Source: Aerophototrophica crusticola (GTDB lineage Bacteria; Pseudomonadota; Alphaproteobacteria; Azospirillales; Azospirillaceae). Taken from it: a stretch of DNA of 64,000 bases. The notes under the pieces are model-generated. The model ran no database searches and was not told where the DNA came from. It saw nothing but the letters and a program-made list of their open reading frames with translations. Within the stretch, counting starts at the first letter, position 1. Every line of letters starts with the position of its first letter. Location: contig MOEB01000008.1 of the NCBI GenBank assembly GCA_001939945.1, forward strand, positions 1-64,000, read 5' to 3'. The position numbers were made by a program, and so were the translations under genes. Below, piece after piece: positions 1,204 through 20,815 of the stretch.

Positions 1204-3876
1204 ATGACCAACGACGAAGAGCTGATCCGGCAGGGGTACCTCGTGGACGGCAGGCTCGCGGGCTCGCCCTACGGCGACTTCGAACGCTTTGAACTCGGCG
1301 ACACCTACGTGGAGACCCTGCACAAGGCGGGTCTCGCCTTCATCCCCCCCGGCTCGGTCAACTTCCCGTTCCGCCACTACCCGGCCCCGGCCAAGCCCCG
1401 CCGGGCGAAGCCGGACACCGTCTACGCGATCAGGGTGGGCAAGGACCTTGTGCCCAGGGCGGTGAAGGAAGCCAAGGGGTCCACGAGAATGCGGGAAGGC
1501 AAGGCGCTGCTGAAGGCTGCCGAGCAGGCCCTCTATTCGGCCGTGGCCCTGTCCTGCGACGTCGCCATCGTCAGCGACGGAAGCACGTGGAAGTACGTGG
1601 ACGTGCAGGCGTCCCTCCGCGCCGGCGATATCCGTTGGCACGACGAGGGGAGGGACCTCAGCGCCGCCGTCCTCGCGAACCTCGTGAACGGGGACGCGGG
1701 CGTCGTCAAGGACCCCCAGCCCCTGGCGGAAAGCGTATGGCAGACGATCTGGATGACGACGAAGGCGGAGCCGAAGGAATGCCTCCTGACCTTCGTAGAG
1801 ATGTTCATCCTGAAGTTCCTGTCCGACAACTTGGCGAAGCGCGACCTGCCTGACGCGCTCTCATTCTACGAGCTGGTGAAGGACCACCGGGAATTCGTGG
1901 ACACCCACGGCACCACGGAGATCGAGTATTACGTCGAGAAGGTCCGCCCGCGGATCAAGCAGCTGTTCCCGGACAACACGGTCGCGAAGGACGCCGCCAT
2001 CGGCCGGATCTTCGGGGTGTCGACCGTGGTGTCCAAGACCTCGGTGATCAACGGCTTCGCGTTCCTCAAGACCTCTGACCAGTCGTTGAAGTCGTTCAAC
2101 GACGCCTTTAAGGCGATCCTGAAGGCCTTCGACAGGTTCGGCCCGCTGACGAGGATTGACCCCGAGTTCAAGCTTAGGCTTTACGAGATGTTCCTGAAGA
2201 GGTCCATGCGCCAGCAGACCCTTGGGCAGTTCTTCACCCCGCGGAACATCGTGCGCCCGATGATCAGGATGGCGCGCCTCGACCTGCTTCCGGACGGTGC
2301 CGTCCTGCTCGACCCGGCTGCGGGCGTCGGCGGGTTTGTCCTCGAGCCGATGCTGCACACGGACGCGCTGCCGGGTAACATCCGCTTCGAGAAGGGCGCG
2401 CCCGTCAGGCGGGTGAGGACGATCGGGGTCGACGTGGACGCCAACACGCACATCCTTGCCAAGGCGAACATGCTGATCCACTTGGCGGAGCTCGTGCGCG
2501 ACCCCAAGACGACCCTCCCCGCGGTCAACCAGGCCATGGCGGAGACGTTCTTGCTGATGAACGGGAACCAGACGCTAGGCGCCCTGGAGCACCCGCCTCG
2601 CGACACGGTGGACGTAATCCTCACCAACCCCCCCTACGTGACCCGGGGAAGCAGCGTCTACAAGGACGCGATCGCGGCGACGACAGGGCTCCGCAACGGC
2701 GTCAGCCTGCGGACCCACTACGACAGGTGCGGCCTCGGGCTGGAGGCGCTGTTCCTGCGCTACGTCTCCGGCGCGCTCAGGCCGGGCGGTCGGGCCTTCG
2801 TCATCGTTCCCCTGGGCATGTTGAACCGGACGGAGCGCGGCCCGAAGGCCAGGATCCTGGAGGAGTGCAATGTCGTCGCATCAATCCAGCTTCCACCGAA
2901 CGCGTTTTTCAACACGTCCCAGAAGACGTGCGTCCTCGTCCTGGAGCGACGCCACACGACGGCGGATGAGCGTCCCAACGTGTTCTGCGCCGTTGCGCGC
3001 AGCATAGGCGAGACTCTGGACTACCTCCGCCTGCCCGACCCTAGCAACGACCTGGCCGACATCGCGGAAATGTTCGTGGCCCGCGAGGCCGGGGAGCCAG
3101 GGGCGGCGGAGGGCAGCCCGATCGTGAAGGTGGTGTCGGCCGACAAGTTCAGCGACGCGGACCGCTGGGACGTCGCCCGCTTCTGGTCCGACGAGGAGAA
3201 GGTGGCCCTCGGCCTCCAGGAGGACGCGGTGGCAAGGCTGGCCTTCGTCGAGGACGTGGAGAAGCGGATTGAGGGCATCTCCCGCGAGTTGAGGGCCGCG
3301 AAAAGGGAGCTGGCCGCCCTTGCCGGTGGCCCCACGAGGGCGGTCCGGCTTAGTGACGCGGCGGTGTTCGGCCTCCGGGCCGGCACCCGCCTCACGACCA
3401 TGGAGATCAGGGCCAACCCAGGGGACGTCCCTGTGTACAGCTGCTTCAGGGAGGCGGACATCGAGAAGGGCAGGGCGGACGAGGCATGGCTGCTCAGGAA
3501 GGGGGCTGTCGTCGAGCGCAGGCCGGTGGTCACCGTGAACGCGAACGGCGCGTCCGTGGGGCGGGTCTTCGTGCGCAGGACGCCCTGCGTGCTCACCGAC
3601 GACGTCATCATCCTCGACCTGAAGGATCGCCGCCTTAACCACGACTATGTGGCGGTCAAGCTCCGCGACGCCATCGCCGCCGGCGGGTACCTCTACGAGG
3701 CAAAGCTGTTCTCCAAGAGAACCCACGAACTCGAGGTCGAGGTGCCCGTGGGCCCTGACGGGAAATTCGACATGAAGCAGCAGAAGAGGATAGCGGCGGC
3801 GGCGGGCCGGCTCGACCAGTTGCGGCGCCAGCTGACGGAACTCGGCGAGACTGCGGCGGGCGTCAGGCTCGCGTAG
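1204..3876 (+). CDS. Single-chain restriction-modification enzyme (nuclease + N6-adenine methylase + specificity region)
   Basis: An 890-residue protein. Residues about 65-115 carry a PD-(D/E)xK-like pattern (P70-D71, then E89-A-K91) like the N-terminal nuclease of HsdR-type enzymes. A helical linker follows. The N6-adenine methylase core has the SAM-binding motif DPAAGVGGF at about 369-377 and the catalytic NPPY at 475-478, preceded by the QTLGQFFTPRNIV segment typical of HsdM-like enzymes. A coiled coil near 680-700 leads to a C-terminal half resembling a target-recognition domain. This order is that of type IIG (or fused type I) enzymes, in which one chain cuts, methylates and recognises DNA. 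ATG 1204 has AGGGG about nine bases upstream. Recognition sequence cannot be predicted. Confidence 0.85.
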   Translation: MTNDEELIRQGYLVDGRLAGSPYGDFERFELGDTYVETLHKAGLAFIPPGSVNFPFRHYPAPAKPRRAKPDTVYAIRVGKDLVPRAVKEAKGSTRMREGKALLKAAEQALYSAVALSCDVAIVSDGSTWKYVDVQASLRAGDIRWHDEGRDLSAAVLANLVNGDAGVVKDPQPLAESVWQTIWMTTKAEPKECLLTFVEMFILKFLSDNLAKRDLPDALSFYELVKDHREFVDTHGTTEIEYYVEKVRPRIKQLFPDNTVAKDAAIGRIFGVSTVVSKTSVINGFAFLKTSDQSLKSFNDAFKAILKAFDRFGPLTRIDPEFKLRLYEMFLKRSMRQQTLGQFFTPRNIVRPMIRMARLDLLPDGAVLLDPAAGVGGFVLEPMLHTDALPGNIRFEKGAPVRRVRTIGVDVDANTHILAKANMLIHLAELVRDPKTTLPAVNQAMAETFLLMNGNQTLGALEHPPRDTVDVILTNPPYVTRGSSVYKDAIAATTGLRNGVSLRTHYDRCGLGLEALFLRYVSGALRPGGRAFVIVPLGMLNRTERGPKARILEECNVVASIQLPPNAFFNTSQKTCVLVLERRHTTADERPNVFCAVARSIGETLDYLRLPDPSNDLADIAEMFVAREAGEPGAAEGSPIVKVVSADKFSDADRWDVARFWSDEEKVALGLQEDAVARLAFVEDVEKRIEGISRELRAAKRELAALAGGPTRAVRLSDAAVFGLRAGTRLTTMEIRANPGDVPVYSCFREADIEKGRADEAWLLRKGAVVERRPVVTVNANGASVGRVFVRRTPCVLTDDVIILDLKDRRLNHDYVAVKLRDAIAAGGYLYEAKLFSKRTHELEVEVPVGPDGKFDMKQQKRIAAAAGRLDQLRRQLTELGETAAGVRLA

Positions 3877-4187: not shown

Positions 4188-4400
4188 TCATGGGGGACGT
4201 ATCTTCAGCGGTATCCGCCGAGCGATCCTGATCCGCGGCTCACCGCGGTCTAGCTCAGGCCCGCGGCCGAGGCCCGGCCCGCCGGGAACCAGGTCGGCCA
4301 GGGCGGCGTGCGCTTCGGCGGCCGGCACCGACTCGTATCGCGCCGCCAGCGCCGCCGCCTCCCCGTAGTAGGCGGCCACCGTGTCCGGTACTCCGCTCAC
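4188..4400 (-). pseudogene. N-terminal fragment of a SAM-dependent methyltransferase
   Basis: From GTG 4400 the protein reads VPDTVAAYYGEAAALAARYE and then VPAAEAHAALADLVPGG. This is the usual opening of small class I methyltransferases, just before the SAM-binding glycine loop. The frame then departs from the family and stops, so the SAM-binding core is missing. The GTG overlaps the stop of the HNH gene upstream by four bases (GTGA), showing that the two were once an ordinary coupled pair. Truncation by a rearrangement in the gap to the left is the likely cause. Confidence 0.5.
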
Positions 4401-4795
4401 GCCGCCTTCCTGAATTGCTCGAAGCGCAAGGCCAAGCGGTCCCGGTCCGGGGCGTCCTGTGGCCGGGCCGGCGGGCACAGCATGGACAGGTGCAGGCGCT
4501 TAATGGCGTCGAGCGTCGGGCCGTCTTGCTGGGCCATCAACTTGTCCGAGACGTGAATGCGATGGTCCAGGTCGATGCCGACGAGGTGGGCGTCGAAGGC
4601 GGCGTGGTCAGCTTTGCTGAGCGGCAGGCCATTGCGCACCACCGGCTGCTCGAGCGCCTCGTCCGCGTCGGGCACGATGTGGGCGGCGTCCAGCAGCAGC
4701 GGCTCGGGCAGGCCGGACAGGGCGCAGCGGCCGCCAATCCCCAGACCACTAGGCACGGCCAGGACACGACATTGCGGGCCCAGGCCGCGCAGCAT
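4397..4795 (-). pseudogene. HNH endonuclease, C-terminal fragment
   Basis: The last 110 residues match the C-terminus of a common HNH restriction endonuclease family: CALSGLPEPLLLDAAHIVPD, then a NGLPLSKADHAAFD block, an IDLDHRIHVSD strand and an ALRFEQF tail. Family members usually carry a long N-terminal domain before the HNH. Here ATG 4795 gives only about 132 residues, and the preceding bases belong to the 3' end of the DUF6527 gene in another frame. It is therefore probably a truncated gene, although the HNH core is intact and could be expressed as the last cistron of the ubiquitin-like operon. It overlaps the methyltransferase start by four bases. Confidence 0.55.
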
Positions 4796-4812
4796 GGGCA
4801 AGGACCTGGCAG

Positions 4813-5193
4813 TCACCGCATGTCCGCCGATCGCTGCGGCTGGTCTTCCGGCCTCCCGCCCCGGCACCACTCGAAGACTCCGTTTTGGACCCAGAAATGG
4901 CAGCCGCAGCGGTTCGTCTGGTGGACGGACGGCTGCACAGTCGGGCGCATCCAGAAATCCAGGGCGACGGCCCATCGCGGGCGGCGTTGCGGGTTCAGGG
5001 ACAGCGAGATTGTGGCGCCGCAGCCGCCGGGGCACCTGAGGCAGGCCCACTTCTCTATCCCGCCGTCCCTTACCAGGGCCAACTCCCCGACGCGCACCTC
5101 GTCTTTCCCGGGGTGAGTGTCCCGCGGCACCGCGATCACGTCGAAACGCAGCACCCCGAGATGCCGCAGTAACCTGGCAATATAAATTCTCAT
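4813..5193 (-). CDS. DUF6527-family protein, ubiquitin-like operon accessory (BubE-like)
   Basis: A 126-residue protein with a CxxC-type cluster (WACLRCPGGCGATISLSL) and a second motif block (QPSVHQTNRCGCHFWV) that mark the DUF6527 family. From memory, DUF6527 proteins accompany bacterial ubiquitin-like conjugation operons and have been proposed to act as the peptidase that removes or processes the Ubl, with the PSV and CHFW blocks contributing active-site residues; this recall could not be checked. The gene begins four bases after the stop of the JAB-E1 gene, so it is co-transcribed. The last dozen residues after the FEWC segment look unrelated to the family and may be read-on sequence created when the HNH gene was truncated. 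Confidence 0.75.
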   Translation of the reverse strand: MRIYIARLLRHLGVLRFDVIAVPRDTHPGKDEVRVGELALVRDGGIEKWACLRCPGGCGATISLSLNPQRRPRWAVALDFWMRPTVQPSVHQTNRCGCHFWVQNGVFEWCRGGRPEDQPQRSADMR

Positions 5194-5197
5194 GTCA

Positions 5198-6610
5198 TCA
5201 CCCGATCATATCGAGGAACGGGTCGGTGTCACCGCGGCCCCAGACCGACGGTGTACCGCAGACAGGGCAGGCATCCGTTTGCCGGACGGCTAGGAAGCGG
5301 TCGTCGCGGACGTGGAAGCGACGCGTCCTTGTCGGGACCATGCCGGCTTCTCCGTGGAACCCCGTCAGCGCGGCCAGCATCTCGTTAACCGCGACGCTGG
5401 CCATCTCCGTGGTGAAGGTCACGACGGCCGGGGCCGGGTCACCGCTCCCGATGACGTAGGCCTCCGCCTTCCGACGCTGGAACTCCTCCGGGTCGGCCCG
5501 CTCGAGCGCCTCCTCGGCGGCCCGCCGCGGGTTCACCACGCCCCCGCAGATGAGGCAGGGCCGCCCCGGAGATAGGGTGGTCACGCGGCCGACGATGTCA
5601 TGGGCGTGCCCCACCCGCGCTGGCGCCATCCGGAGGCCCACGTCGATGACCGGGATGCCGTAGAAGTAGGCGAGCCGGTTCAGCAGTTGGCGCCCGGAGT
5701 GGTCGTCGGTGCAGCCGAAGACGAAGTCGCATGCCTTCAGCATGTCCCGCGCCAGGGCGTCCCCAACCCAGCCCTGGTGTGTCGCGACCTCCACCCCGAG
5801 CTCGGCGCCCAGAATTTCCCTGGCTAATACCTGGACCTTCGACAGGCCGGCAACCGCGTCGGCGCGCCGCGACCCGTGCAGCCGGTTCAGGTTGGTGGTG
5901 TCCACCACGTCCTTGTCGACCAGGAGGAGGCGGCCGATACCCAGGCGCGCCAACAGCATCGCGGTGGGGCTACCGGTCCCCCCGGCACCCACGACACCGA
6001 CGCGGAGCGACCGGACCATATCGTTGAATCCCGGGCCGAACAGACGCCCCTGGCGCTCAAGGTGGTCGTCCGGGTCACGCGGGTCCTGGCCCGCGCCCGG
6101 CCACCGCCGGAACCTGCCGCCAACGGCCTGCACCCAGGACATGTCGGCCGGGACGCCGCCGTCCGCGGGCCAGAGCCTCGCGCGCACCGAGCCGTCCCCC
6201 CCGAGCACCAGGCTAACCAAGCCCGCGGTGCCCTTGACGCGCGCGGTGCGCGCCAGCTCGGCCTCGTTCCGGTCATCCTGGGCGGAGAAGAAGGCGGTGC
6301 TCCCGGGATGCGTGTGGACCAGCGCGGGGACGAAGCCGCCGGCAACCGCGTCGGAAAGTAGGCGCATGTAGCCGCCGGTCCCCCAGGTCACGTGGTTGCC
6401 GGAGCTGCTGACCATCTCGCCGGGGTCGATGTCCCTCCAGGCGTGGGAAACCAGCCGGAGGCGCCTGCCCCCGCTCCAGGGGTCGGTGGTCACGGCCGCC
6501 TGCCCAAGGAGCATGTAGGCGGCGCGTTCCGCGCCGTTTCCGTCAGGCAGGAGGCGCTGGAGCCGCCCGGCATGCGGCTCCAGCAGGGTGAGGTCGAGCT
6601 GCGCCGCCAT
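5198..6610 (-). CDS. JAB-domain/ThiF-type E1 fusion
   Basis: A 470-residue protein starting at ATG 6610, with GAGGGGG just upstream. Residues about 1-150 are a JAB/JAMM metallopeptidase with the complete zinc signature HxHx7SxxD (H99, H101, S109, D112). Residues about 190-455 are a ThiF/E1 adenylating domain with the nucleotide loop GAGGTGS at 208-214 and two CxxC pairs (about 352/355 and 448/451) that would hold structural zinc. E1 enzymes adenylate a ubiquitin-like C-terminus; a fused JAB would trim or remove Ubl. In the crossover region where many E1s have their catalytic cysteine this protein reads AYVIGSGDPAPAVV, with no Cys. It overlaps the Ubl-E2 stop by one base. Part of a four-gene minus-strand operon. 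Confidence 0.85.
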   Translation of the reverse strand: MAAQLDLTLLEPHAGRLQRLLPDGNGAERAAYMLLGQAAVTTDPWSGGRRLRLVSHAWRDIDPGEMVSSSGNHVTWGTGGYMRLLSDAVAGGFVPALVHTHPGSTAFFSAQDDRNEAELARTARVKGTAGLVSLVLGGDGSVRARLWPADGGVPADMSWVQAVGGRFRRWPGAGQDPRDPDDHLERQGRLFGPGFNDMVRSLRVGVVGAGGTGSPTAMLLARLGIGRLLLVDKDVVDTTNLNRLHGSRRADAVAGLSKVQVLAREILGAELGVEVATHQGWVGDALARDMLKACDFVFGCTDDHSGRQLLNRLAYFYGIPVIDVGLRMAPARVGHAHDIVGRVTTLSPGRPCLICGGVVNPRRAAEEALERADPEEFQRRKAEAYVIGSGDPAPAVVTFTTEMASVAVNEMLAALTGFHGEAGMVPTRTRRFHVRDDRFLAVRQTDACPVCGTPSVWGRGDTDPFLDMIG

Positions 6611-7509
6611 CACTGCGCCCCCTCGATCGCGTGGCGGGCCCGCGCGATCATGGTGTGGAGCCCGTCCAGGCCCGGCCGCCACTCGGTGGAGTGGCGGGAC
6701 CAGCGCTGCCACGACTTGCCAACGAAGGGGTGCGGGACATCCGCCCGGCTCGGGTAGCGGCCCACGGCGGCCAGCTTCACCCAGGGCAAAGTGAAGAACA
6801 TGTCCGGGGGCACGTCCGGGTACCCGGGCGGGAGCAGGACCAGCACGTCGGCCTTGGCGCTGTCGTACTTGCCCTCCGGCAGCGGGATGTCCTTCAGAAC
6901 CACCCCGACCTGCCCGCCGTCCACGACCATCTCGTAGGCGATGCCGTGCCCGTCCAGGTACTCGCGGTCCCGGGACGGGAGGGGGCCGCGGCCCTCGGTC
7001 GTCTCCTTGATGACCGTGATGAACCGCTCGACCCCCGCCTTGGACAGGTCGACGGTGTCAGCCGGCCCGATCTCTAGGTCGTGGCCGCCGCGGACCTCCT
7101 GGTACAGGGAGTAGCCGGCCTGTATCCCTGCCAGCTCCCGCAGGACGGCCCCGGATATCACCGGTTTGCCCCAGGCGAGGTGGCGGTCATCCACCTTGAA
7201 CTTGTAGGCGCGGTCGGTGCGGAAGTGGATGAAGCGTTCCACGCCCCGGCCCCGGAGGTCGAACGGCTCGTCCGGACGCAGTTCCTCGAAGTCCCCGTTG
7301 GGCAGGATGGCGTAGAGGCTGAACTCGTCCGCCGGGCGAGCGCCGGCGGCCTCCAGGATCTGCCGGCCCAGGGGCACCGGGTCCGACAGCTCCGCCGACT
7401 TGAAGTTGAGCGTCTCGTCGCCGACCTGGATGCGGTAGGACGGCACCTTGGTGTTGCCCACGCCCTGGTCGTCGTTGCCGGGGCGGGCCTTGTCCGTGTC
7501 GTGGGACAT
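6610..7509 (-). CDS. Multi-ubiquitin-domain protein fused to Prok-E2 family E domain
   Basis: A 299-residue protein. Residues about 25-97 and 98-172 are two tandem ubiquitin-like beta-grasp repeats; each ends in a VERFI segment characteristic of the bacterial multiubiquitin family. Residues about 180-295 match the family E bacterial E2-like fold (LPPGYPDVPPDMFF, then WQRWSRHSTEWRPG). The whole protein contains no cysteine, so the E2 cannot form the usual thioester. ATG 7509 is chosen because GAGGAAAG lies eight bases upstream; an in-frame ATG at 7557 has no such site. The product and the downstream JAB-E1 would form a noncanonical conjugation pathway; the Ubl domains lack a free Gly-Gly tail because they are followed directly by the E2. 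Confidence 0.85.
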   Translation of the reverse strand: MSHDTDKARPGNDDQGVGNTKVPSYRIQVGDETLNFKSAELSDPVPLGRQILEAAGARPADEFSLYAILPNGDFEELRPDEPFDLRGRGVERFIHFRTDRAYKFKVDDRHLAWGKPVISGAVLRELAGIQAGYSLYQEVRGGHDLEIGPADTVDLSKAGVERFITVIKETTEGRGPLPSRDREYLDGHGIAYEMVVDGGQVGVVLKDIPLPEGKYDSAKADVLVLLPPGYPDVPPDMFFTLPWVKLAAVGRYPSRADVPHPFVGKSWQRWSRHSTEWRPGLDGLHTMIARARHAIEGAQ

Positions 7510-7597: not shown

Positions 7598-10500
7598 CTA
7601 TTTCGAGATTTTTTTCAGGGGCACCTCACCGGCCGGCACCGGCCCGCAGATGAAGAAGGAGGGGCAGCGCGGGCAGTCCCTGGACCTCTTGGCGGGGAAG
7701 CGGCCCTGGCGCATGGCATCGAGGGCTTCGCCGAGTTTGGCACGCCGGCTGTCCAGCACCCTCTGCGACATCTCCACGGGCGTCACGGTTCCGTCGGCCA
7801 AGTGCACCAGCTCCACCTTGGTCGGGCCGGGTTGCCGCTGGGCCGCCAACACAAGCATCGCGGCGAGGAGGTCGTCTCCGTCGCGGTGGTATCTGTGGCC
7901 TGTCCGGACCTTCCTCACGCTCCGCCCGCCCGAGGGCAGCAGGCGGATGTCGTCCAGGACCACCAGGATCTCGCCCCCGGGGACGGCCAGGCTCAGCTTG
8001 GCGGCTCCGGCGGCGTTCCCGGCCAGCGCCAAGGCCAGGTTCGACAAGAGCCCGAGGGCGATGGCGCGATACTCCGCCGAGTAGCCGTGGTCAGCCGGGC
8101 CATGGGTGGCCCAAACGCTGTCGAGCATGGCGGCCAAGGCATCCGCGTCCGGCGCTCCGCCTTGCGCGATGGCGTGGTCCACGACCTGCTGGACCGCGGA
8201 GTGCATCCGCATGAAGGGCGTCTCGGCCCGGCGCCCGCCCGTCTGCAGGACATGGGTATAGAGGAACCGCCTCGGGCATTTCTCGTACAGGCTCACCTGG
8301 CTGTCCGTGAGCGCCAACTGGACCCCCGGCCGGATGGGCACGGGTTCCTCGTCGCGCGGCCGCGGCACGACCACCCTCGGGTGGCAGGCCCGACGGGAAA
8401 GCGTGGAGCCGAGGTCATCGAGGTACCGCGACCCTGGCCACCGGACGCCACCCTTCTTCGTCGCCATGGAGTAGAGCAGCAGCCGGTCCCGCGCGCGCGA
8501 TAGCGCCACGAAGAACAGGGACTGCTGCTCCTCATCATGGCTGGCCCGCGCGACGTCCTCCCCGCTCCCCGAGGCGCCCTGCACCATGCCGTCAGGCGGC
8601 GGCACGCCGTCGGATTTGCCGTGGTGCCGCGGAAGCGAGCCCTGGTTCAAGCCCGGGATGTGCACGACGGGGAACTCGAGCCCCTTGCTGCCGTGGATGG
8701 TCATCAGCCGTACGGCGTCCATCCCCTGGGCCGCCTCCGGCAGCTGGCGCAGGTCCCGCTCGTCCGACAGCTGCAGGAGCTTTCGCACTCGTTCCAGCAG
8801 CCGGGCGGCGCGCGGCCCGTGTCCCAGGGGTTGGCCGCGGACGAAGTTCATGAACTGCCAGACGGCGATGCCCCGGAAACGCGACTGGACCGACGTCGAC
8901 CCCGCGATGCCGGCCGCCAGCCTCGTGCGGTCCAGCAGCACCCTCGCCAGGAAGTCCCAGGGGTCCGCCTCGGGCGAGGCGCCCTCGAACAGGGCGGCGG
9001 CGGCCCGCAGCCCAGGCGCCGGCGAGCCCGCCAGGCCGTCCAGCCAGGCCATGGGCCCGCCCCCCGTCCCGCGCAGGGGCGCCAGCACTGCCTCGACGTC
9101 GGGGAGGCCGGCCTCGAAGCCATCCATCGTGGCGGAGCGGAACAGGCCCGCGCCCCAGCCGTCGGCCAGCAGCGACACCAGGGTCAGGAGGTCCTTCACC
9201 TCGGGGCGCTCGAAGATGCTACCGAGGTAGAGGACGGGGATCCCCGATGCCTCGAGTCCGGCGGCCAGCCGGGATATCCGGTCGTTGCCGGCACAGATGA
9301 TGGCTTGGTCGCGGTAGGCGAAGCCCGCCGCGCGCATCTCCTCGACCGCCTCCACCAAGGCGGCTTCCTCGCTCCCCCCGGAGACCTCCCGGTACTCGGG
9401 CCGGTGCCCGCCGGCCCCCCTGTCCGCCTCGTAGGCGACGGGCGGCGACGCGCGCATCGCCACGTTCGCGAACTGCCCGAAGGCCGCCGTCACCTCCGAG
9501 CGCGACCGGTAGTTCACCAGGAGCCGGCCCGTGGCAGCCCCCGGGAAGTCGTCCCCGAAGAGGGCCATGTTGAAGGGCGACGCGCCGCGGAACCGGTACA
9601 CGGACTGGCGCGCGTCGCCCACGGCCCACAGGTTCTCGCCCGATCCGGCCAGGGCCCTCAGCAACTCCACGCTGGCGCGGTTGACGTCCTGGTACTCGTC
9701 CACCAGCAGGTGGCGGTGCCGGGCCCTCAGGGCGTCCCGCACGGCCGGGTCGGAGCCGCACAGCCTCGCCGGCAGCATCACCAGGTCGCCGAAATCCACG
9801 CACTTCCGTTCAGCCTTCAGGCGCTCGTACTCGCGGTAGACGATGCCCACCTCGCGGCTGCGGGCCGCCGCCTCCCGCGCCCCGTCGTCGTCGGCGGCAA
9901 CCCGCATGGCCTCCGCCAGCTCCAGGTACCGGCGCGGGCATGCCATCTCATCCTTGGCGCGGGAGATGGCGGCGAGGATGTCCAGGAGTTCCCGGGTCGG
10001 GTCCCACAGGTTCCTGAAGTGCTCCAGGCCGAGGCGGGGGAACTCCGCCTCCAGGAGCTCGACCGCCTCGGCCCTGTCAAGGAGGCGCGGGTTCGGCGGG
10101 AGGCCGAGGCGGTCGTGGAAGCGGCGCACCACGTCGAGGCCGAAGGCGTGGAACGTCCCGATCCAGATCGCGCCGGCCGCCTGCGGCCATTTCGCGGCGA
10201 TGCGCTCGGTCAGCTCGGCGGCGGCCTTGTTCGAGAAGGTGAGCACGATGATGGACGAAGGGTCCACCCCCGCGGCCAGCAGGTACCCCACCCTGGCGAC
10301 AAGGGTGTGGGTCTTGCCCGTGCCGGGCCCGGCCTCCAGCAGGTACGGCGTCCCCCGGTGCCTCGCCGCCGCCTCCTGCCCTTCGTTCAGCGCCCTCTCC
10401 TCCCGTGGCCGGGAGGGCGCGGGCGGGATCTCGGGCACGAGCAGGGCGTCCAGCAGCTGCGCCGCGACCACCGGGAAGCCGGCCCCGAGGCGCCCCGCGA

Positions 10501-10978
10501 TCTCCGTGGCGGTCAGACCCTCGCCGACGTGCAGGCGCCTGGCGACTGGCCGCGGCAGGAGGAACTCCCGCGCGAACAGGTCCATCTGGACCTCCCGGCG
10601 CTCCCTGGCGCCATAGTCGACCACGCGCTCGAGGCCCACGGGGGACGCCTCCGCCGGGCGGCCCGGGTCCGGGGAGACGGCGACGTAGCCCTCCTCCCCG
10701 CCCTCCAGCTCGACGTGCCCCAGCTCGTGGGCGACGAGGAACGCGTCGAGGAAGGGGTCGCCGGTTGCCTCATGGACGATCGCCAGCGCGCCGGGGTCAT
10801 ACAGCGCGCGTCCCCCGTGCAGGCGGACATCCCCCGGGGCCACCCTCGTCACCTCGATGTCGCGCCGTCGGGCCTCCGCCAGGACGAAGCCGTAGGGGTC
10901 GAAAGGGTCGGCACCCTGCGCGACCGCCGCCGCGTGCAGCGCCTCGGCTCGCCTCCTCGCGATCTCGATGGCGTTCAT
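7598..10978 (-). CDS. ImmA/IrrE peptidase - UvrD/Rep helicase - AddB-like nuclease fusion
   Basis: An 1126-residue three-part protein. An ImmA/IrrE-type zinc peptidase occupies about 1-150 (HELGH at 84-88). A UvrD/Rep superfamily 1 helicase follows, with Walker A GPGTGKT at 217-223, the DEYQD box, a QSVYRFRGA motif and the LMTIHGSKGLEF motif. The C-terminus is RecB/AddB-like: Cys 901, 1102, 1105 and 1111 have the spacing of the AddB iron-sulfur cluster (C, then CxxCx5C). In the nuclease motif (about 1000-1025) LDDIR is present but the usual DxK-T-G is KVRTG, so nuclease activity is doubtful. It starts two bases after the upstream gene. The architecture suggests a DNA-processing defence protein with a protease sensor; that role is inference. 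Confidence 0.8.
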   Translation of the reverse strand: MNAIEIARRRAEALHAAAVAQGADPFDPYGFVLAEARRRDIEVTRVAPGDVRLHGGRALYDPGALAIVHEATGDPFLDAFLVAHELGHVELEGGEEGYVAVSPDPGRPAEASPVGLERVVDYGARERREVQMDLFAREFLLPRPVARRLHVGEGLTATEIAGRLGAGFPVVAAQLLDALLVPEIPPAPSRPREERALNEGQEAAARHRGTPYLLEAGPGTGKTHTLVARVGYLLAAGVDPSSIIVLTFSNKAAAELTERIAAKWPQAAGAIWIGTFHAFGLDVVRRFHDRLGLPPNPRLLDRAEAVELLEAEFPRLGLEHFRNLWDPTRELLDILAAISRAKDEMACPRRYLELAEAMRVAADDDGAREAAARSREVGIVYREYERLKAERKCVDFGDLVMLPARLCGSDPAVRDALRARHRHLLVDEYQDVNRASVELLRALAGSGENLWAVGDARQSVYRFRGASPFNMALFGDDFPGAATGRLLVNYRSRSEVTAAFGQFANVAMRASPPVAYEADRGAGGHRPEYREVSGGSEEAALVEAVEEMRAAGFAYRDQAIICAGNDRISRLAAGLEASGIPVLYLGSIFERPEVKDLLTLVSLLADGWGAGLFRSATMDGFEAGLPDVEAVLAPLRGTGGGPMAWLDGLAGSPAPGLRAAAALFEGASPEADPWDFLARVLLDRTRLAAGIAGSTSVQSRFRGIAVWQFMNFVRGQPLGHGPRAARLLERVRKLLQLSDERDLRQLPEAAQGMDAVRLMTIHGSKGLEFPVVHIPGLNQGSLPRHHGKSDGVPPPDGMVQGASGSGEDVARASHDEEQQSLFFVALSRARDRLLLYSMATKKGGVRWPGSRYLDDLGSTLSRRACHPRVVVPRPRDEEPVPIRPGVQLALTDSQVSLYEKCPRRFLYTHVLQTGGRRAETPFMRMHSAVQQVVDHAIAQGGAPDADALAAMLDSVWATHGPADHGYSAEYRAIALGLLSNLALALAGNAAGAAKLSLAVPGGEILVVLDDIRLLPSGGRSVRKVRTGHRYHRDGDDLLAAMLVLAAQRQPGPTKVELVHLADGTVTPVEMSQRVLDSRRAKLGEALDAMRQGRFPAKRSRDCPRCPSFFICGPVPAGEVPLKKISK

Positions 10979-10980
10979 GG

Positions 10981-11562
10981 TCAGGCCGGGTCGTGGAGGA
11001 GCGCTTCCTTCCGCGCAACGGGCATCTCGGTATCCGCCACGAGTTGGGCGAAGGAGACCTGCTGTTGCGCGGACGGCTTGGACGCGGCCTTGAATGCGGC
11101 TTGCGCCGGCACCGCCGGCGGCATGCGCACGTACCCGTGGAGCGCCGCCAGGGCCACCCCCATCTTTTCCGCCAGCTGGCGCAGGAAGTGCCGGGGGTAT
11201 GTCGAGGGGGCCACCAGCCTGTCACGCACGGCTGCCAGGATCGTGCGGGGCACTTCCAGGTCGGCGGCCAGTTTCGCCAATGCCTTCCCTTGCAGCCTGG
11301 TGAAGACCTCTTCCGTGCCTTGCTGCCCGGGTGAGCACGCCATGAACCTCTCCCAGGCCGCGTCGGCCTTCGCCGGGTCGTCGGGAGTTGGATCGGGGGC
11401 TTCCAGGTCCACCTGCACGAGGCGTAGCTCATGGGCGAGGTCGAGCAGCTCGTGGGCGAGTTCGGGATGGCGTTCCATGTATGAACGGAGGGTACCCGGC
11501 CCGTGGTCGGGCTCGACGGCGAAGGCATACAGGATGTCGTCGGGCGTCTGCGTGCCGCTCAT
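10981..11562 (-). CDS. Unrecognised protein coupled to the sigma-like gene
   Basis: A 193-residue, mostly helical protein with no transmembrane segment or signal peptide. It opens with TPDDILYAFAVEP and continues with a helical block (YMERHPELAHELLDLAHELR) and a later helix-rich part (RTILAAVRDRLVAP, then FLRQLAEKMGVALAALHGYV) that could be a helix-turn-helix. ATG 11562 overlaps the stop of the sigma-like gene by four bases, and the stop is two bases before the ImmA-UvrD gene, so the three are translationally coupled. A partner or antagonist of the sigma-like protein is a reasonable guess from position only; I do not recognise the family. Confidence 0.6.
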   Translation of the reverse strand: MSGTQTPDDILYAFAVEPDHGPGTLRSYMERHPELAHELLDLAHELRLVQVDLEAPDPTPDDPAKADAAWERFMACSPGQQGTEEVFTRLQGKALAKLAADLEVPRTILAAVRDRLVAPSTYPRHFLRQLAEKMGVALAALHGYVRMPPAVPAQAAFKAASKPSAQQQVSFAQLVADTEMPVARKEALLHDPA

Positions 11563-12371
11563 GGCTTGCCCTTCCCGGTGAGCATCGCGGTTAACTTCTT
11601 GATCGCCCGGTCGCGCCGGTTCCAGACGGTCTTGGCCGAACATCCCAGGATCTTCACCATGCTCAGCTTTTCGGGGTCTTCCGACACGATGGGGATTTCG
11701 GCGAGCATCATGGTGATGACCTTTCTTTCGTCCGTTGGCAAAGAGTCAATCGCCAACGCGAGCATCTTCCGGTAACGCGGGGCCAGTATCTCGTCTTCAG
11801 GGGGCCTAAACAGGGCGGCAGCCTCCTCCACCTCCGCCGACGGCTCGGACGACTCCTCATCGCCCAAAGGGGCCGACGCTGCCTCCATCCTGAAGGCCTT
11901 GCGCTTGGCGGTGATGCGTAGGCGGCTGATGGCCTGCTCGAACCGGACCTCGAAGAAGTCGAGCCGGTCATCCCCGCCGTCGCGGTCCAGGCAGAGCAGC
12001 TCGTTGAAGCGGAAGAGCACCTCGTCCCGGACATCCTTGGCCAAGCGGTCTTCCGTGGCCTGACTACCCGAGCGTCCCTCCGCCCGGGGAAGCGCCCGGA
12101 GGACGCGGCCGCGCAGGAGGTCGAACAGCTTGCGGAACAGCCGGTCGTCGTTATCGAACTTGGTGCGCCTCAGCAGGTGCAGGAGGCACTCGGACGGGAG
12201 ATAGCCGGGGTGCCCCCGGTCGTTGATGGAAGCCCTCTCAAGCAACTCCTCCCGCGGCATCGCCAGGGCAACGTTGATGGACTGTTCTATCTCCGGGGGC
12301 CGTTCCATTGGCTCCCCATCTGCCGTCAATCTGCTCAGTCTGTCAGCCACGCCGCCCTCACCTGAAGCCAT
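11559..12371 (-). CDS. Sigma-70-like (ECF-type region 4) protein
   Basis: A 270-residue protein. Its C-terminal 65 residues match sigma-70 region 4: LALAIDSLPTDERKVITMML followed by the helix-turn-helix ILGCSAKTVWNRRDRAIKKL. The middle (an RDEVLFRFNELLCLD helix followed by FEVRFEQAISRLRI) could be a diverged region 2, but its core motif is not clear. An acidic, low-complexity linker separates the parts. ATG 12371 is taken as start; GTG/TTG alternatives and Met 12308 exist and no good ribosome site decides it. A sigma-like protein inside a defence operon would allow the cluster to direct its own transcription, or act as a DNA-binding sensor. This is inference. Confidence 0.65.
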   Translation of the reverse strand: MASGEGGVADRLSRLTADGEPMERPPEIEQSINVALAMPREELLERASINDRGHPGYLPSECLLHLLRRTKFDNDDRLFRKLFDLLRGRVLRALPRAEGRSGSQATEDRLAKDVRDEVLFRFNELLCLDRDGGDDRLDFFEVRFEQAISRLRITAKRKAFRMEAASAPLGDEESSEPSAEVEEAAALFRPPEDEILAPRYRKMLALAIDSLPTDERKVITMMLAEIPIVSEDPEKLSMVKILGCSAKTVWNRRDRAIKKLTAMLTGKGKP

Positions 12372-12463
12372 GTTTTGCGCCAAGTGCGATCCCCTTCAGT
12401 CCAAACCGAACGTTCGAGGGATGCTGAGATAGGCCAATCTCAAACCGTCATCCGCCTCCGCGT

Positions 12464-14692
12464 TCATTTCAGAAGCGACCCGGATTGGGATGCGCCAACC
12501 AACTTGGCGGCGACTTCCTTCACACTCTCAGGTTCGAGCCACCTGCTTGCGAAATCGGCACAGAGGAGTTCCTCGGTGAGGAAGCCGTCGAACTTGTAGG
12601 TAGCCTTGTTGGATACCATCGCCGCCAGTGCCATGGGGTCCGGGGGTGTGCCCAAGGCTATGTCGTGGAGGGCCTTCACGACCTGGGTTGGCAAGGCGTC
12701 GTTCACCTCTACGCCAATCTCGAACCTGAGCGTCTTGAAACCCCGCATTTTCAGAGCCAACGACAGGGTTTCCAATTTCTTTGCCCCCACCCAGGGAAGG
12801 AGCAGGACACGATCGCCCGCGGCAAGGATGCCGGTGTGGGACAGGCCCAGATCCTGGTAGGCCTGCCTGCCTTGATTGAAGAGATCAATCCCGGTCGGGT
12901 TCAGGACGCCAAGGGCCTTCCCGTCCTCATAGACGGCGCGCATCTCAGCCACGAGCCGGTCATGCATCCCCCCGCCGTCGCCGCCGCCGAAGCTCGGGGG
13001 CTTGCCCGCCCCTGCCGGCTCCACGGTGATTAGGCGTGCCGGGTTGTCCACCCCAAGCACCCGCCAGCGGCGCCCGGCGAAGACCACGTAACTGTCAGGG
13101 GCCAACGGGGTGTCCACCGGGACCGTGCCCAGGACGCGTCCCGCATGCGCGATCCGATACTCCTCCTGCGTCTCGAAGACCGCGAAGAAGCCGTAATGGT
13201 CGACGAGCCGCTCCCCTTCGCGCCCCAGCATCAAAAGGCCGTCTGGGCCCTGCTCGATGAGGGCGCGGCTCGGGTCTCCCATTGCCCTCAGCAGCGCCGC
13301 GAACAACTGCGGCGTCACCCCTTCGAAAGGCCCCGGGCCACACAGGCTGGAGTAGAGCCACCGTGCGGACGCGCCGCCGCGCTGGGCGATGAGGGCCAAG
13401 GCCTGGTGGAGGAGCGTGGACAAGTGCAGCGCGCGACGCTCCGGCGGCTCATACCATCGCTCGACCAGGAGGCGAACGGCGGCAACAGCCTGGAAGACGT
13501 CCGTGCGCAGGCGGTCGAAGGGATGGTCCCCCGCGTCCACCCCATCCTCCGGCACGTGGATGCGTAGGATGGCGGGCTGGCCCGGGCGGCGCCCGGACCG
13601 GCCCAGGCGTTGCCTCAACGAAGCGATCGAGCGGGGCGGGCCTATCTGCGCGACCGTCTCCACCGCGCCGATATCGATGCCGAGCTCCAAGGTGGTCGTA
13701 CAGACCACCGTGGTCGGCATCTGCCCATCGCGCAGGCGCTGCTCCACCTCCTCGCGGATGTCGCGGGAAAGGCTGCCGTGGTGCGGGAAGAATTCGTTCG
13801 GCAGCGACATGCCCTCGCACTGCGCCCGCAGGCGGTCCGCATAGAGCTCGACGTTGTTGCGGGAGCCGCCGAACACCAGGTTGTGGGCGCCCCGGAGCTT
13901 GAAGAGCTCCTTGGTGATCCTCTCCGTGACGCTTGGCGCCGACGGTGCGCCGTCTGGCACCGGTTCCGGAACGTAGGCCATCACCTTGATGCGGAGATCC
14001 TGGCCCCCACCCTCGGTGGCAACGACCACGACTCCCTCGGGATCATCGGGGCGCAGGTGGGCGGCCGCTGCCCGCATGTCGCCCAAGGTCGCGGAAAGAC
14101 CGACGCGTGGCACTCTTCGCCCGGTGAGCGCCTCCAAGCGGTTCAGCAGCGACACGAGCTGGACGCCGCGCTCCGATCCGATGAACGCATGGAACTCGTC
14201 GACCACCACATACCGCAGGTCCCCGAAAAGCTTGGGGATCTCCATGGACCTGCGGACCAACATGGCTTCAAGACTCTCGGGCGTGATCAGCACGATCCCG
14301 GACGGCTTCGAGCGGGCCTTCTGCTTTGCGGATGCCGAGACGTCCCCGTGCCACTTGTGGACGGGGATTTCCACGCGCTCGCAGAGCCCGTCCAGGCGGC
14401 GCCACTGGTCATTGATCAGCGCCTTGAGGGGGCTGACATACAGTGCCTTGAAGCCCGGCTTCGTCTCCTCGGCGATGGCGGACACCACCGGCAGGAACGC
14501 GGCCTCGGTCTTGCCGCCCGCCGTGGCGGCGGCAATGATGGTGTCCCCCTCCCGGTTAAGGATCGCCGGGATCGACTTGGCCTGGATCGGGCGGAGCTCC
14601 GGCCAACCCTGCTCATACACCCAGCGCTGGACGGCGGGGTGCAGGAGGGCGAACGCGTCGCGGCCCTCAGAGCTTGAAGGCAGCGAGCCCAT
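12464..14692 (-). CDS. sngC: Lhr/BrxHI-type DEAD/H helicase, Shango SngC-like
   Basis: A 742-residue superfamily 2 helicase. Motif I is ATAGGKT at 56-62, motif II is VDEFH near 160, motif III is SATL and motif VI is QRLGRSGR; the order and wording fit the Lhr/BrxHI branch. The C-terminal third is poorly conserved (an RRWRVLGVD strand typical of Lhr-like winged/barrel parts). ATG 14692 lies 26 bases inside the upstream ATPase gene, indicating translational coupling. With the ATPase and the TerB protein it forms the three-gene set reported as the anti-phage system Shango, and also resembles the BrxD/BrxHI pair of type 2 BREX; no PglX, PglZ or PglW is nearby, so a BREX system is not supported. 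Confidence 0.8.
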   Translation of the reverse strand: MGSLPSSSEGRDAFALLHPAVQRWVYEQGWPELRPIQAKSIPAILNREGDTIIAAATAGGKTEAAFLPVVSAIAEETKPGFKALYVSPLKALINDQWRRLDGLCERVEIPVHKWHGDVSASAKQKARSKPSGIVLITPESLEAMLVRRSMEIPKLFGDLRYVVVDEFHAFIGSERGVQLVSLLNRLEALTGRRVPRVGLSATLGDMRAAAAHLRPDDPEGVVVVATEGGGQDLRIKVMAYVPEPVPDGAPSAPSVTERITKELFKLRGAHNLVFGGSRNNVELYADRLRAQCEGMSLPNEFFPHHGSLSRDIREEVEQRLRDGQMPTTVVCTTTLELGIDIGAVETVAQIGPPRSIASLRQRLGRSGRRPGQPAILRIHVPEDGVDAGDHPFDRLRTDVFQAVAAVRLLVERWYEPPERRALHLSTLLHQALALIAQRGGASARWLYSSLCGPGPFEGVTPQLFAALLRAMGDPSRALIEQGPDGLLMLGREGERLVDHYGFFAVFETQEEYRIAHAGRVLGTVPVDTPLAPDSYVVFAGRRWRVLGVDNPARLITVEPAGAGKPPSFGGGDGGGMHDRLVAEMRAVYEDGKALGVLNPTGIDLFNQGRQAYQDLGLSHTGILAAGDRVLLLPWVGAKKLETLSLALKMRGFKTLRFEIGVEVNDALPTQVVKALHDIALGTPPDPMALAAMVSNKATYKFDGFLTEELLCADFASRWLEPESVKEVAAKLVGASQSGSLLK

Positions 14693-15971
14693 CGTCCCCG
14701 TCCACTTCGCCAGCAGCCAGATCGGGCTCTGGCGCGTCCGCCTGGACCGGCACCTCGCCGACCAGCGCGCGCCAGTCGGTCCCGGGGTTCTGCTCCAGCA
14801 CGGACAGCAGCTGCACCCAGGCCTTGACCGTGTTGCGGGGAGTTCGGAAGTAGCTGTCACCGACCCGTTTCTGGCAATGCTCCATGAAGGCCACCATCGC
14901 CTCGTCCGGCACGGCTTGCTTGGCGGGGTCCCCTCCCGCGAACACGTTGCGGATGTTCGACAGCAACACGAAGAGGTCCTCTCGCGTCAGGCTCTGCAGC
15001 CTGACGACCGGCCCCGACAGGTCGACCAAGCCGTCCTTGGCGAAGGCGTTCTCTGCAAGCCTCGACTGGAGCGCCTGGTAGCTGTACAGGCCACGACGCG
15101 TGTCCATCAGGAACTCGGGCGTGCCCGCCATCAGGAAGCCGAGGTTCGCGGCGCTGCCCTGGAGCACGTCGTTCAGCACCCGCAGGATCTGCTCATAGTT
15201 GGCGTTGCGGGCTTGGGAGCTCTGGAGCTTGTAGAGGTTCACCATCTCGTCGAGCACGACCATGAGCCCCGCATACCCGGCGAGGACCACGAACCGCGAC
15301 ATCAGCTTGAAGTGGTCGTACACGCTGTCGTCATCGACGATCGCCCGGACCCCCAGGGCGGCACGCGCCTCGGTCTTGGTGGTATACTCGCCACGCAGCC
15401 AACGGAGTGCTGCACCCTTGGTCGCCTCGTCGTCGTTCTCGCTCGCCTCGTAGTACCGGGTCAGGACGGTCGCGAAGTCGTACCCGCCCACGAGCTCCTG
15501 GATCGACGCCAGCTTCGCGTGGATCTCGGACTCCACCGAGCGGCCCCGTTCCTTGGCTTCCTTGGCCGCCTCGGTCACGAAACGCTCCACCACGCTGGGC
15601 AGCGCGCCGCCCTCGGGCTTCGTCCGGGTCGCCATGTTGCGCATGCACTCGGCATAGAGGCCGCGCGCCTGCCCACCAGTCGCATGCAGGCGACGGTCGG
15701 GCGCCAAGTCCCCGCCCACGACCACGAGGCGCTTCTCCATCGCGACGAGGCGCAGCAGGTTCACGAAGAACGTCTTGCCAGCCCCGTACTCGCCGATGAT
15801 GAACCGGATGCCGGCACCGCCGTCGGCGACCCGGTCTACGTCACGGACGATCGCCTCGATCTCGCGCGCACGGCCCACCTGGATGTGTCGCAAGCCCGAC
15901 TTGGGCACGACACCGGCGCTCAGCGCCTGGACGATGGTGTCGCGGTCACGGGGCCGGATCGTGGCGTTCAT
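14667..15971 (-). CDS. sngB: BrxD-type ATPase, Shango SngB-like
   Basis: A 434-residue P-loop ATPase of the DUF2791/BrxD family. Walker A is GEYGAGKT at 60-67, the Walker B-like strand is LMVVLDEMVNLY, and the opening segment HIQVGRAREI is typical. Length matches BrxD proteins (about 430 residues). Its ATG overlaps the stop of the TerB-domain gene by four bases and its own 3' end overlaps the helicase, so all three proteins are made in coupled fashion. In the Shango system the ATPase is essential together with the helicase; here the catalytic residues are intact. The last 30 residues are acidic and probably disordered. Confidence 0.82.
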   Translation of the reverse strand: MNATIRPRDRDTIVQALSAGVVPKSGLRHIQVGRAREIEAIVRDVDRVADGGAGIRFIIGEYGAGKTFFVNLLRLVAMEKRLVVVGGDLAPDRRLHATGGQARGLYAECMRNMATRTKPEGGALPSVVERFVTEAAKEAKERGRSVESEIHAKLASIQELVGGYDFATVLTRYYEASENDDEATKGAALRWLRGEYTTKTEARAALGVRAIVDDDSVYDHFKLMSRFVVLAGYAGLMVVLDEMVNLYKLQSSQARNANYEQILRVLNDVLQGSAANLGFLMAGTPEFLMDTRRGLYSYQALQSRLAENAFAKDGLVDLSGPVVRLQSLTREDLFVLLSNIRNVFAGGDPAKQAVPDEAMVAFMEHCQKRVGDSYFRTPRNTVKAWVQLLSVLEQNPGTDWRALVGEVPVQADAPEPDLAAGEVDGDDGLAAFKL

Positions 15972-18778: not shown

Positions 18779-19081
18779 TCCGGCATCCCCGACCCTCGAA
18801 TGCTCCTTTTGTCCCTGATCGTTCTAGACAGTGCAATTACGGATCGACAGTCTCGTGTGACCATCCCCTTCCCCATACCATCGTATGCTCGGCCCCCCGC
18901 GTTAGATGGCTTTCGAGCCACAGTGCCTCTGATTTTGCGTGGGTAGGCCATCCGGCCTTCCCGTTTACGGTCGCGCTTCAAGCTTCCGAGTCGCGTTCCA
19001 AGTGCGCTCCGGTATGATGCGGATCCACGCGAAAGGGTTATGCCCGCGTGTCTTCGCAATCATCATGCTGGTACCGGGAAG
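18779..19081. promoter_or_regulatory. Divergent intergenic region, Shango-like / Zorya-like genes
   Basis: A 303-base spacer between two divergent operons, with lower GC than its flanks, so it must hold both promoters. No clear sigma-70 boxes, palindrome or terminator could be assigned by eye. An alternative in-frame start for the plus-strand gene lies at 19040. Confidence 0.5.
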
Positions 19082-20815
19082 ATGAACGAAAGCCTGCTTT
19101 GGCGCGCCTACACCGCCGTGACCGCTGACCCAGTGAACGTCTTTTTCCTCGTAGTCACGGCGATCGTCCTCTTCGCCGCGCTCGCTGCGGCGCCTCGGGA
19201 TCACGATAGGCATCAGGCGTTCGCCCGCGCCGCGCCGGGCCTCCTGACCAGCCTCGGCGTGCTGGGTACCTTCGTCGGGATCTTCATCGGCCTCGTGGAT
19301 TTCGACGTGTCCAAGATCGACGACAGCGTCCCCAAGCTCCTCGCGGGGATGAAGATTGCTTTCGCCACCAGCATCCTCGGCATGGGAAGCGGCATCCTGG
19401 TGAAGCTCGTGCACCAGAGGTTCGCCCCGATGCCGAAGGAGGAGGCCAACGACGTCACCGGAAAGGACTTGGTACGCGGCCTCGCCGAGATTCGGGAGTC
19501 CGTCGACAAGGTCAGGACGTGCATCGCCGGCGACGCCGATGGGAGCATGGTCACCCAGGTCCAGAAGCTGCGGACGGCCGTCATGGACGGCAACCGTGAC
19601 ACCCTGGAGGAGCTCCGTACCTTCGGGCGCCAGCTGGCCGAGAACAATGCGAAGATGTTCATCGACGCGCTGCGCGAGACCATCCGGGACTTCAACGAGA
19701 AGCTGTCAGAACAGTTCGGGGAGAACTTCAAGGAGCTGAACGTCGCCGTTGGGCGCCTGCTGGAATGGCAGGAGCGCTACAAGGCGCATGTCGACATCGT
19801 CGAGGATCGCTTCAAGGCCGCCCTGGCGGGGATCGAGGCGAACCGCGCCGCGGTCGCTGAGATTGCCGACAAGGCCGCGTCCATCCCTGCCACGATGCAG
19901 GGTCTTGAACGCCTGCTCTCGGCGCTCGACGAGACCAACGGCGAGATACAACAGCGCCTGGAGGCGTTCGCCGCCATGCGCCAGCAAGCCCTCGAGGCGT
20001 TCCCGGTTATCGAGCAGCGGGTCCTGCAGCTCACCGACGGCTTCTCCGGCGTGGTCATGCGCAGCGTTGAAGCAACAGAGCGCTCCGTCGTCGCGCAGCA
20101 GGAACGCCTGGGTCAAGCCACCTCCGCCCTGGCGGGCGCGGTCGAGAAGAACATCGCGGACATCACGGCGTCCGTGGAAGCGCAGGAGAAGGCGCTGATG
20201 GGTGTGGCCCAAGGCTACGAGAAGCTGAGGGAGGACACCCAAACCGTCGTCATCACCGTGGGGACGGAGGTCGGCGCCGCGCTTGGCGGCATTAACGCCT
20301 CGCTGGTTGGCTTCGTTGAGGCACAGGAGGCCAACCTGCAGGAGATCACGGCGGCGACGACGCAGCACATCGGGTCCGTAGTCGAGCAGCAGAGACTCTG
20401 GAGCCAGGACATCCAGGCCGGCTTCGACAAGCTGAAGGACGAGACGGCGGAGATCATCGACCGGCTCGAAGGCGAGATGGAGCGCGCCTTCAAGCGGCTC
20501 GCGCTGGAGATGAAGAACGCCACAGATGCCCAGGCGGTCCAAATCCGCGACCTCGCCCAGCGCCAGTCCGAGGCCAATGCCATGCTGGTCGACGACATGC
20601 GCAAGCAGTTCTCCAGCTCCCTCAAGGAGACGGAGAAGCACCTTATCGACAGCGTGGCGACCTTTGATCGGGCCATGCAGGAAGAGATCACGCGTGTCAT
20701 GGAGACGATGGGCAGCCACCTCGCCTCGTTGTCCGGCAAGTTCGTGGACGACTACACGCCGCTGACGGACCGGCTGCGTGAAGTCGTCCGCATCGCTCAG
20801 AAGGTGGACGCGTGA
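19082..20815 (+). CDS. zorA: MotA/TolQ/ExbB-type channel protein with long coiled-coil tail, ZorA-like
   Basis: A 577-residue inner-membrane protein. Three hydrophobic helices (VNVFFLVVTAIVLFA; a segment with LLTSLGVLGTFVGIFIGL; a segment with IAFATSILGMGSGILVKL) have the MotA/ExbB wording. About 430 residues of heptad-rich coiled coil follow to the C-terminus. In Zorya, five ZorA subunits form a proton-driven channel around a ZorB dimer and the long tail projects into the cytoplasm as a signal rod. The start at 19082 is preferred because the first helix then lies at the N-terminus; 19040 would add 14 residues. The stop overlaps the ATG of the next gene (TGATG). Confidence 0.8.
   Translation: MNESLLWRAYTAVTADPVNVFFLVVTAIVLFAALAAAPRDHDRHQAFARAAPGLLTSLGVLGTFVGIFIGLVDFDVSKIDDSVPKLLAGMKIAFATSILGMGSGILVKLVHQRFAPMPKEEANDVTGKDLVRGLAEIRESVDKVRTCIAGDADGSMVTQVQKLRTAVMDGNRDTLEELRTFGRQLAENNAKMFIDALRETIRDFNEKLSEQFGENFKELNVAVGRLLEWQERYKAHVDIVEDRFKAALAGIEANRAAVAEIADKAASIPATMQGLERLLSALDETNGEIQQRLEAFAAMRQQALEAFPVIEQRVLQLTDGFSGVVMRSVEATERSVVAQQERLGQATSALAGAVEKNIADITASVEAQEKALMGVAQGYEKLREDTQTVVITVGTEVGAALGGINASLVGFVEAQEANLQEITAATTQHIGSVVEQQRLWSQDIQAGFDKLKDETAEIIDRLEGEMERAFKRLALEMKNATDAQAVQIRDLAQRQSEANAMLVDDMRKQFSSSLKETEKHLIDSVATFDRAMQEEITRVMETMGSHLASLSGKFVDDYTPLTDRLREVVRIAQKVDA

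Follow-up and report, generated by a model that had tools for sequence, protein, structure and literature searches.

A Bub operon with a fused Ubl–E2 protein, no conserved catalytic cysteine and a predicted processing site at the Ubl–E2 junction

Introduction

Several bacterial modules of the defence type combine a ubiquitin-like protein (Ubl) with an E1, an E2 and a JAB peptidase, among them the Bil pathway and Cap2/Cap3 of type II CBASS. Bil and Cap2/Cap3 are described as using a catalytic Cys in both the E1 and the E2. The operon described as type 6e comprises a polyUbl, a Cys-less E2/RWD-like domain, a JAB–E1 and a small Cys-rich protein; the polyUbl and the E2 are fused in some species, and the E2 was judged to be inactive (Iyer et al. 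2006, PMC1779556). Of the bacterial ubiquitination-like (Bub) operons 544 have been counted, and protection against phage by Bub has yet to be demonstrated (PMC13373217). Citrobacter Bub (PDB 9ea4, 9ea5, 9ea8, 9eae and 9eav; Ye et al. 2026, doi 10.1038/s41594-025-01696-1, cited in PMC13373217) has a Ubl, a Cys-less E2 and a JAB–E1 fusion, as does the locus described here. CapH and CapP are reported as controllers of Bub and CBASS operons; CapP is a peptidase that, once activated by ssDNA, cleaves the HTH repressor CapH (as cited in PMC13373217).

Here we analyse a locus in a 64,000-nucleotide stretch of DNA from Aerophototrophica crusticola (the window). It is a Bub operon at positions 4813–7509, and it belongs to a clade with fused BubA and BubB, distant from the structurally solved Citrobacter one.

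Results and discussion

Gene content and family assignment

Three genes, all on the minus strand, occupy 4813–7509. Their Pfam domains agree with a preliminary description that had placed Ubl–E2, JAB–E1 and DUF6527 proteins in this span; the check proposed there spoke of four genes, one more than the span holds. The first gene (6610..7509, −) encodes a 299-residue protein, Ubl1–Ubl2–E2-like, that is free of Cys as had been noted. It carries two Multi_ubiq domains (PF14452, E 5.6e-37, over the Pfam cut-off) and Prok-E2_E (PF14462, E 4.6e-46). Ubl1 covers about residues 25–100 (7210..7437, −), in the PF14452 stretch and with matches to multi-ubiquitin structures; Ubl2, the domain expected to be activated, covers about residues 101–173 (6991..7209, −). 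The E2-like domain (6613..6981, −) contains the motif QRWSRH. The stop codon of this gene overlaps the ATG of the next in the sequence TGATG. The second gene (5198..6610, −) encodes an N-terminal JAB/JAMM peptidase and a ThiF-type E1 in one chain (Prok-JAB, PF14464, E 6e-7; ThiF, PF00899, E 4e-37). After a gap of four bases comes the DUF6527 gene (4813..5193, −; PF20137, E 1.5e-22); the JAB–E1 fusion and its neighbour had both been read correctly. An ORF with an HNH_2 match (4397–5050, −; 4.6e-10) overlaps the DUF6527 gene in its upstream part; it may be a remnant, or else a gene whose start lies further on.

We assign the operon to Bub because sequence matches in the PDB, fold matches and the type 6e gene set agree. 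A PDB sequence search matched the JAB–E1 protein to 'Citrobacter BubCD' (E 4e-33, residues 16–419), the E2 domain to 'Citrobacter BubB' (E 4e-10) and the Ubl domains to multi-ubiquitin proteins. In the predicted model, the E2 domain matches 9eae_C (BubCD(D104A)–BubB) with Z 20.4 and rmsd 1.3 over 122 residues, and Ubl2 matches 9ea8_B (BubA(155–229) bound to BubCD) with Z 10.8 over 73 residues. NCBIfam and PADLOC contain no specific model for the operon's proteins. The DUF6527 protein occupies the position of BubE, and the gene names of Bub are used below. The preliminary reading as a ubiquitin-like conjugation operon is thus borne out by the match to Bub and type 6e, but its implied novelty is not, both having been described already.

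In the Serratia homologue of Citrobacter Bub, BubA and BubB again form a single chain whose junction carries a Gly, and a short DUF6527-like gene comes after them, as here. There are also differences. The Serratia JAB–E1 is 26% identical to ours, and our E2 domain shares 26% of aligned residues with Citrobacter BubB. Citrobacter Bub has three Ubls, whereas here there are two; the Citrobacter-type junction reads VNNG rather than TTEG; and two regulators stand upstream of the Serratia locus, where our locus has a sigma-like/regulator/M78–helicase cassette. In species genomes, 341 stretches encode an E2 relative and tblastn against plasmids returned 179 records, a signal far above chance. Wherever the contig allows, the gene set is the same in the 93 loci that we parsed and aligned (80 from species genomes, 12 from plasmids, and the window).

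Absence of a conserved catalytic cysteine

In the alignment of 93 E2 rows, Cys never exceeds about a third of the rows in any column; Q92, R93, W94, S95, R96, H97, W101 and D106 (numbered within the domain) are all but invariant. The E1 crossover segment of the window, AYVIGSGDPAPAVV (5420..5461, −), lacks Cys as previously reported, and the loop has no conserved Cys across the same rows. The nucleotide motifs of the E1 are kept (G208–S214, D232, N240–R243, K258 and D302), as are its CxxC pairs across relatives. In contrast to Bil and Cap2-type systems, there is thus no conserved Cys at the catalytic places of either enzyme. Since this holds over about 90 operons, it is neither a sequencing error nor a local oddity. 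A misread or lost Cys in the window can be set aside, the relatives being likewise without one; the preliminary description had itself named a mis-sequenced conserved Cys as the case against its reading, and the 93 rows contain none. To judge from the alignment, Cys-free chemistry is a trait of the whole family, which is widespread and mobile.

A Ser or other residue had been proposed to replace the missing Cys. The absence of Cys is genuine. S389, the loop Ser of the window's E1, makes a weak candidate for that role, as relatives do not conserve it. Y385 and P394 of the E1 are invariant, and T400 and T401 are present in 87 and 85 of 88 rows, respectively. Both Thr residues are missing from the Citrobacter-like Serratia protein, and no hydroxyl residue of the loop is invariant across both this clade and the solved one. 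The conserved candidates for a replacing nucleophile, should there be one, are E1 Thr400 and Thr401 and E2 Ser95.

The junction between the Ubl and E2-like domains

The Ubl had been noted to have no free C-terminal Gly-Gly, its way of becoming a substrate being unclear. That it lacks a usable C-terminus is not supported: TTEG (residues 170–173; 6991..7002, −), with an invariant Gly, sits at the junction with the E2-like domain, where it may serve as a latent Ubl C-terminus. About a third of the relatives encode BubA and BubB in two genes. Among the 29 stand-alone BubA proteins whose end could be read, TTEG is the very C-terminus in 24, and in five it is followed by one to eight extra residues (GAE, AA, L, SDGSPSHS and NHGSPSHS). 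Gly173 falls at the position where these stand-alone relatives end. At readable fused junctions P1 is always Gly, P2 is Glu in 57 of 62, and P3 and P4 are Thr in 60 and 61; P1′ varies among relatives, the window reading TTEG|RG. One junction (L066) reads STEG, and the Serratia IncHI2 relative has a fused protein with VNNG|EE. Junctions were located near the E2 by a pattern (TTEG, TVEG, TTAG, TVAG or VNNG) that required the final Gly; the invariance of this residue therefore rests also on direct viewing of every junction. In one Pseudomonas locus (L038, sp. MWU16-30317), whose kin are fused, a break in the Ubl reading frame ahead of the junction puts BubA and BubB in separate frames.

In the Citrobacter PDB chains, BubA ends at the junction Gly and BubB starts at or next to the following residue (it is numbered 239–360 in 9eae). 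The AlphaFold model of the 299-residue protein has a single internal stretch with pLDDT below 50, residues 170–174 (TTEGR); elsewhere such values occur at the N-terminus only. A search of the genome found no other Multi_ubiq protein and no other DUF6527 protein. A second, free Ubl supplying the tag was thereby rejected, and the tag would have to be cut out of the fusion. The Ubl–E2 fusion is predicted to be a precursor that is cleaved after Gly173. Such a conserved processing site would explain the fused Ubl, and the prediction is directly testable.

Candidate peptidases and proposed mechanism

Apart from the JAB-less Sphingomonas rows, one masked row and one truncated row, every operon retains the JAMM residues E28, H99, H101, S109 and D112. 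The three Sphingomonas operons without a JAB domain all have a ready-made TTEG end. We considered naming the maturation protease from the loss of JAMM against the occurrence of stand-alone Ubls, and abandoned this because one JAB-less clade is too few. In BubE, D79, S89 and H99 are kept in 89 of 89 rows. None of its Cys residues (C51, C54, C58, C96, C98 and C110) is kept in every row, which argues against an obligatory Zn finger; the small protein of type 6e, in contrast, was called a Zn finger (PMC1779556). The D79/S89/H99 pattern would suit a Ser-His-Asp enzyme. By sequence BubE has no relative in the PDB, and no fold match to its model was convincing (the highest Z among chains re-aligned by structure was 2.8). 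Operons with a ready-made TTEG end still keep both JAMM and BubE, so at least one of the two must do something else as well, taking off the tag being the simplest possibility.

We consider it very probable that the locus is a Bub operon of the fused BubA–BubB clade, and propose that it works in the following way. A peptidase of the operon, putatively the JAMM domain of BubCD or BubE, would cut after Gly173 (TTEG|RG), freeing the di-Ubl BubA and the E2-like BubB. Gly173 of Ubl2 would then be adenylated by BubCD, in which the E1 motifs are present, and the Ubl would pass to its target without a Cys thioester, with BubB as co-factor. For this transfer we favour, at about an even chance, a hydroxyl (oxyester) intermediate, with BubB Ser95 and E1 Thr400/Thr401 as candidates; direct attack on the adenylate would be the alternative. 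Ye et al. have reportedly described oxyester intermediates, and also BubE as having peptidase activity of the serine type; of the proposals made here, only the leaning towards the hydroxyl route draws on this. JAMM and/or BubE may also take the tag off, and the upstream cassette, by analogy with CapH and CapP, probably turns the operon on upon DNA damage or invasion. The residues to mutate can now be named (G173, JAMM D112, BubE S89 and H99, E2 S95, and E1 T400 and T401), and their clade is remote from that of the solved structures.

Other accounts of the operon can be given. The E2-like domain could be a dead, RWD-like Ubl binder and the fusion a scaffold or filament within a non-covalent machine that conjugates nothing; the E2 of type 6e was called inactive (Iyer et al. 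2006, PMC1779556), and filaments are formed by multi-ubiquitin proteins according to PDB titles. We think this unlikely, since the operon retains a JAMM peptidase and the TTEG end as well as the adenylation motifs of the E1, a combination that is well explained only by C-terminal transfer chemistry. Equally, the Ubl–E2 protein might never be cut but act as one working chain, TTEG being a flexible linker inherited from split ancestors. Fused forms are indeed many and clustered on the tree, and fusion may itself be useful. An idle linker would drift, however, whereas fused proteins keep TTEG almost invariant ahead of variable residues; with the published Citrobacter chains also split at the equivalent Gly, an uncut fusion appears very improbable.

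The ThiF-like character of the E1 and its Zn-type CxxC pairs also bring to mind sulfur carriage, with a ThiS/MoaD-like protein and a ThiF/MoeB-like activator handling sulfur rather than tagging protein. This we can hardly credit: the three genes contain no rhodanese domain, the modifier end is not Gly-Gly (the junction being TTEG), the E1 falls below every NCBIfam ThiF/MoeB cut-off, and its closest full-length solved relative is BubCD.

The upstream cassette

Directly upstream of the Bub genes lies a gene (7598..10978, −) in which Pfam recognises an M78 (CapP-like) peptidase, a UvrD helicase and a PD-(D/E)XK nuclease. It is preceded by the gene of a 193-residue regulator-like protein (10981..11562, −), which is kept together with the helicase and belongs to no family recognised by Pfam. 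The sigma-region-4-like gene (11559..12383, −; weak PF08281) overlaps the latter by four bases and is the first of the presumed operon, which probably extends upstream as far as 12383. Relatives of the sigma-like protein are found in the same place at five other loci (L104, L112, L113, L114 and L118). Of 62 fused operons, 46 have the M78–UvrD–PD-(D/E)XK gene as a neighbour, as does 1 of 28 split operons; because contigs are short, these counts are lower bounds. One branch of the E1 tree (100/99) gathers 50 rows, and 47 of these have the helicase. Bub operons are thereby linked to a helicase/peptidase cassette.

The M78 part of the helicase protein matches PADLOC capP (E 1e-7), and it is on account of this resemblance that the cassette may reasonably be viewed as a DNA-damage gate, by analogy. 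As with CapH and CapP, an M78 peptidase and a small regulator-like gene stand beside a Bub operon; unlike CapP, the M78 domain here is the N-terminus of a UvrD helicase/nuclease, and a sigma-like gene is present in addition.

Starting from the helicase, five of five loci (plasmids L112–L115 and one genome of the same family) adjoin a Ubl module. Four are of an E2-less kind, with DUF6791–E1 and DUF6527 where scanned or annotated; L114 has a weak ubiquitin match, DUF7665, JAB and ThiF at 10448–13265. E2-less loci stand behind the same cassette in L094–L097, L112, L113, L115 and L118. Their E1 carries DUF6791 in place of JAB and their DUF6527 protein is longer. The polyUbl has T(I/V)QS, not a Gly, at its end in L094–L097 and L118, and TDKS in L112. 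We suggest tentatively, with somewhat more doubt than confidence, that the cassette is a dedicated sensor of DNA damage or invading DNA controlling at least three Ubl modules: the fused-BubAB Bub operon, the E2-less polyUbl/DUF6791–E1/DUF6527 module and the Ubl/DUF7665/JAB/ThiF module. If this is so, DNA processing is coupled to protein tagging. The helicase/peptidase cassette is not mentioned in PMC13373217, and a sensor common to several kinds of Ubl module may be the less known part of the system.

Genomic surroundings

The operon sits inside an anti-phage defence island. It adjoins three genes that match Shango (12464–18778, −; SngC 2.5e-261, SngB 3e-178, SngA 3e-87), and Zorya type II (ZorA, ZorB and ZorE) lies nearby at 19040–22373 (+). 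The E2 family was found in none of 39 other related genomes searched, as expected of a mobile defence module. The window also encodes an 890-residue N-6 DNA methylase (1204–3876, +) with weak likeness to type I MTases and MAD2. Another protein with an M78 peptidase domain (28811–30313, −) carries it at the C-terminus and resembles RmrA/CapP. At 31360–33975 (−), one protein combines three phage tail collar domains with a B-lectin match.
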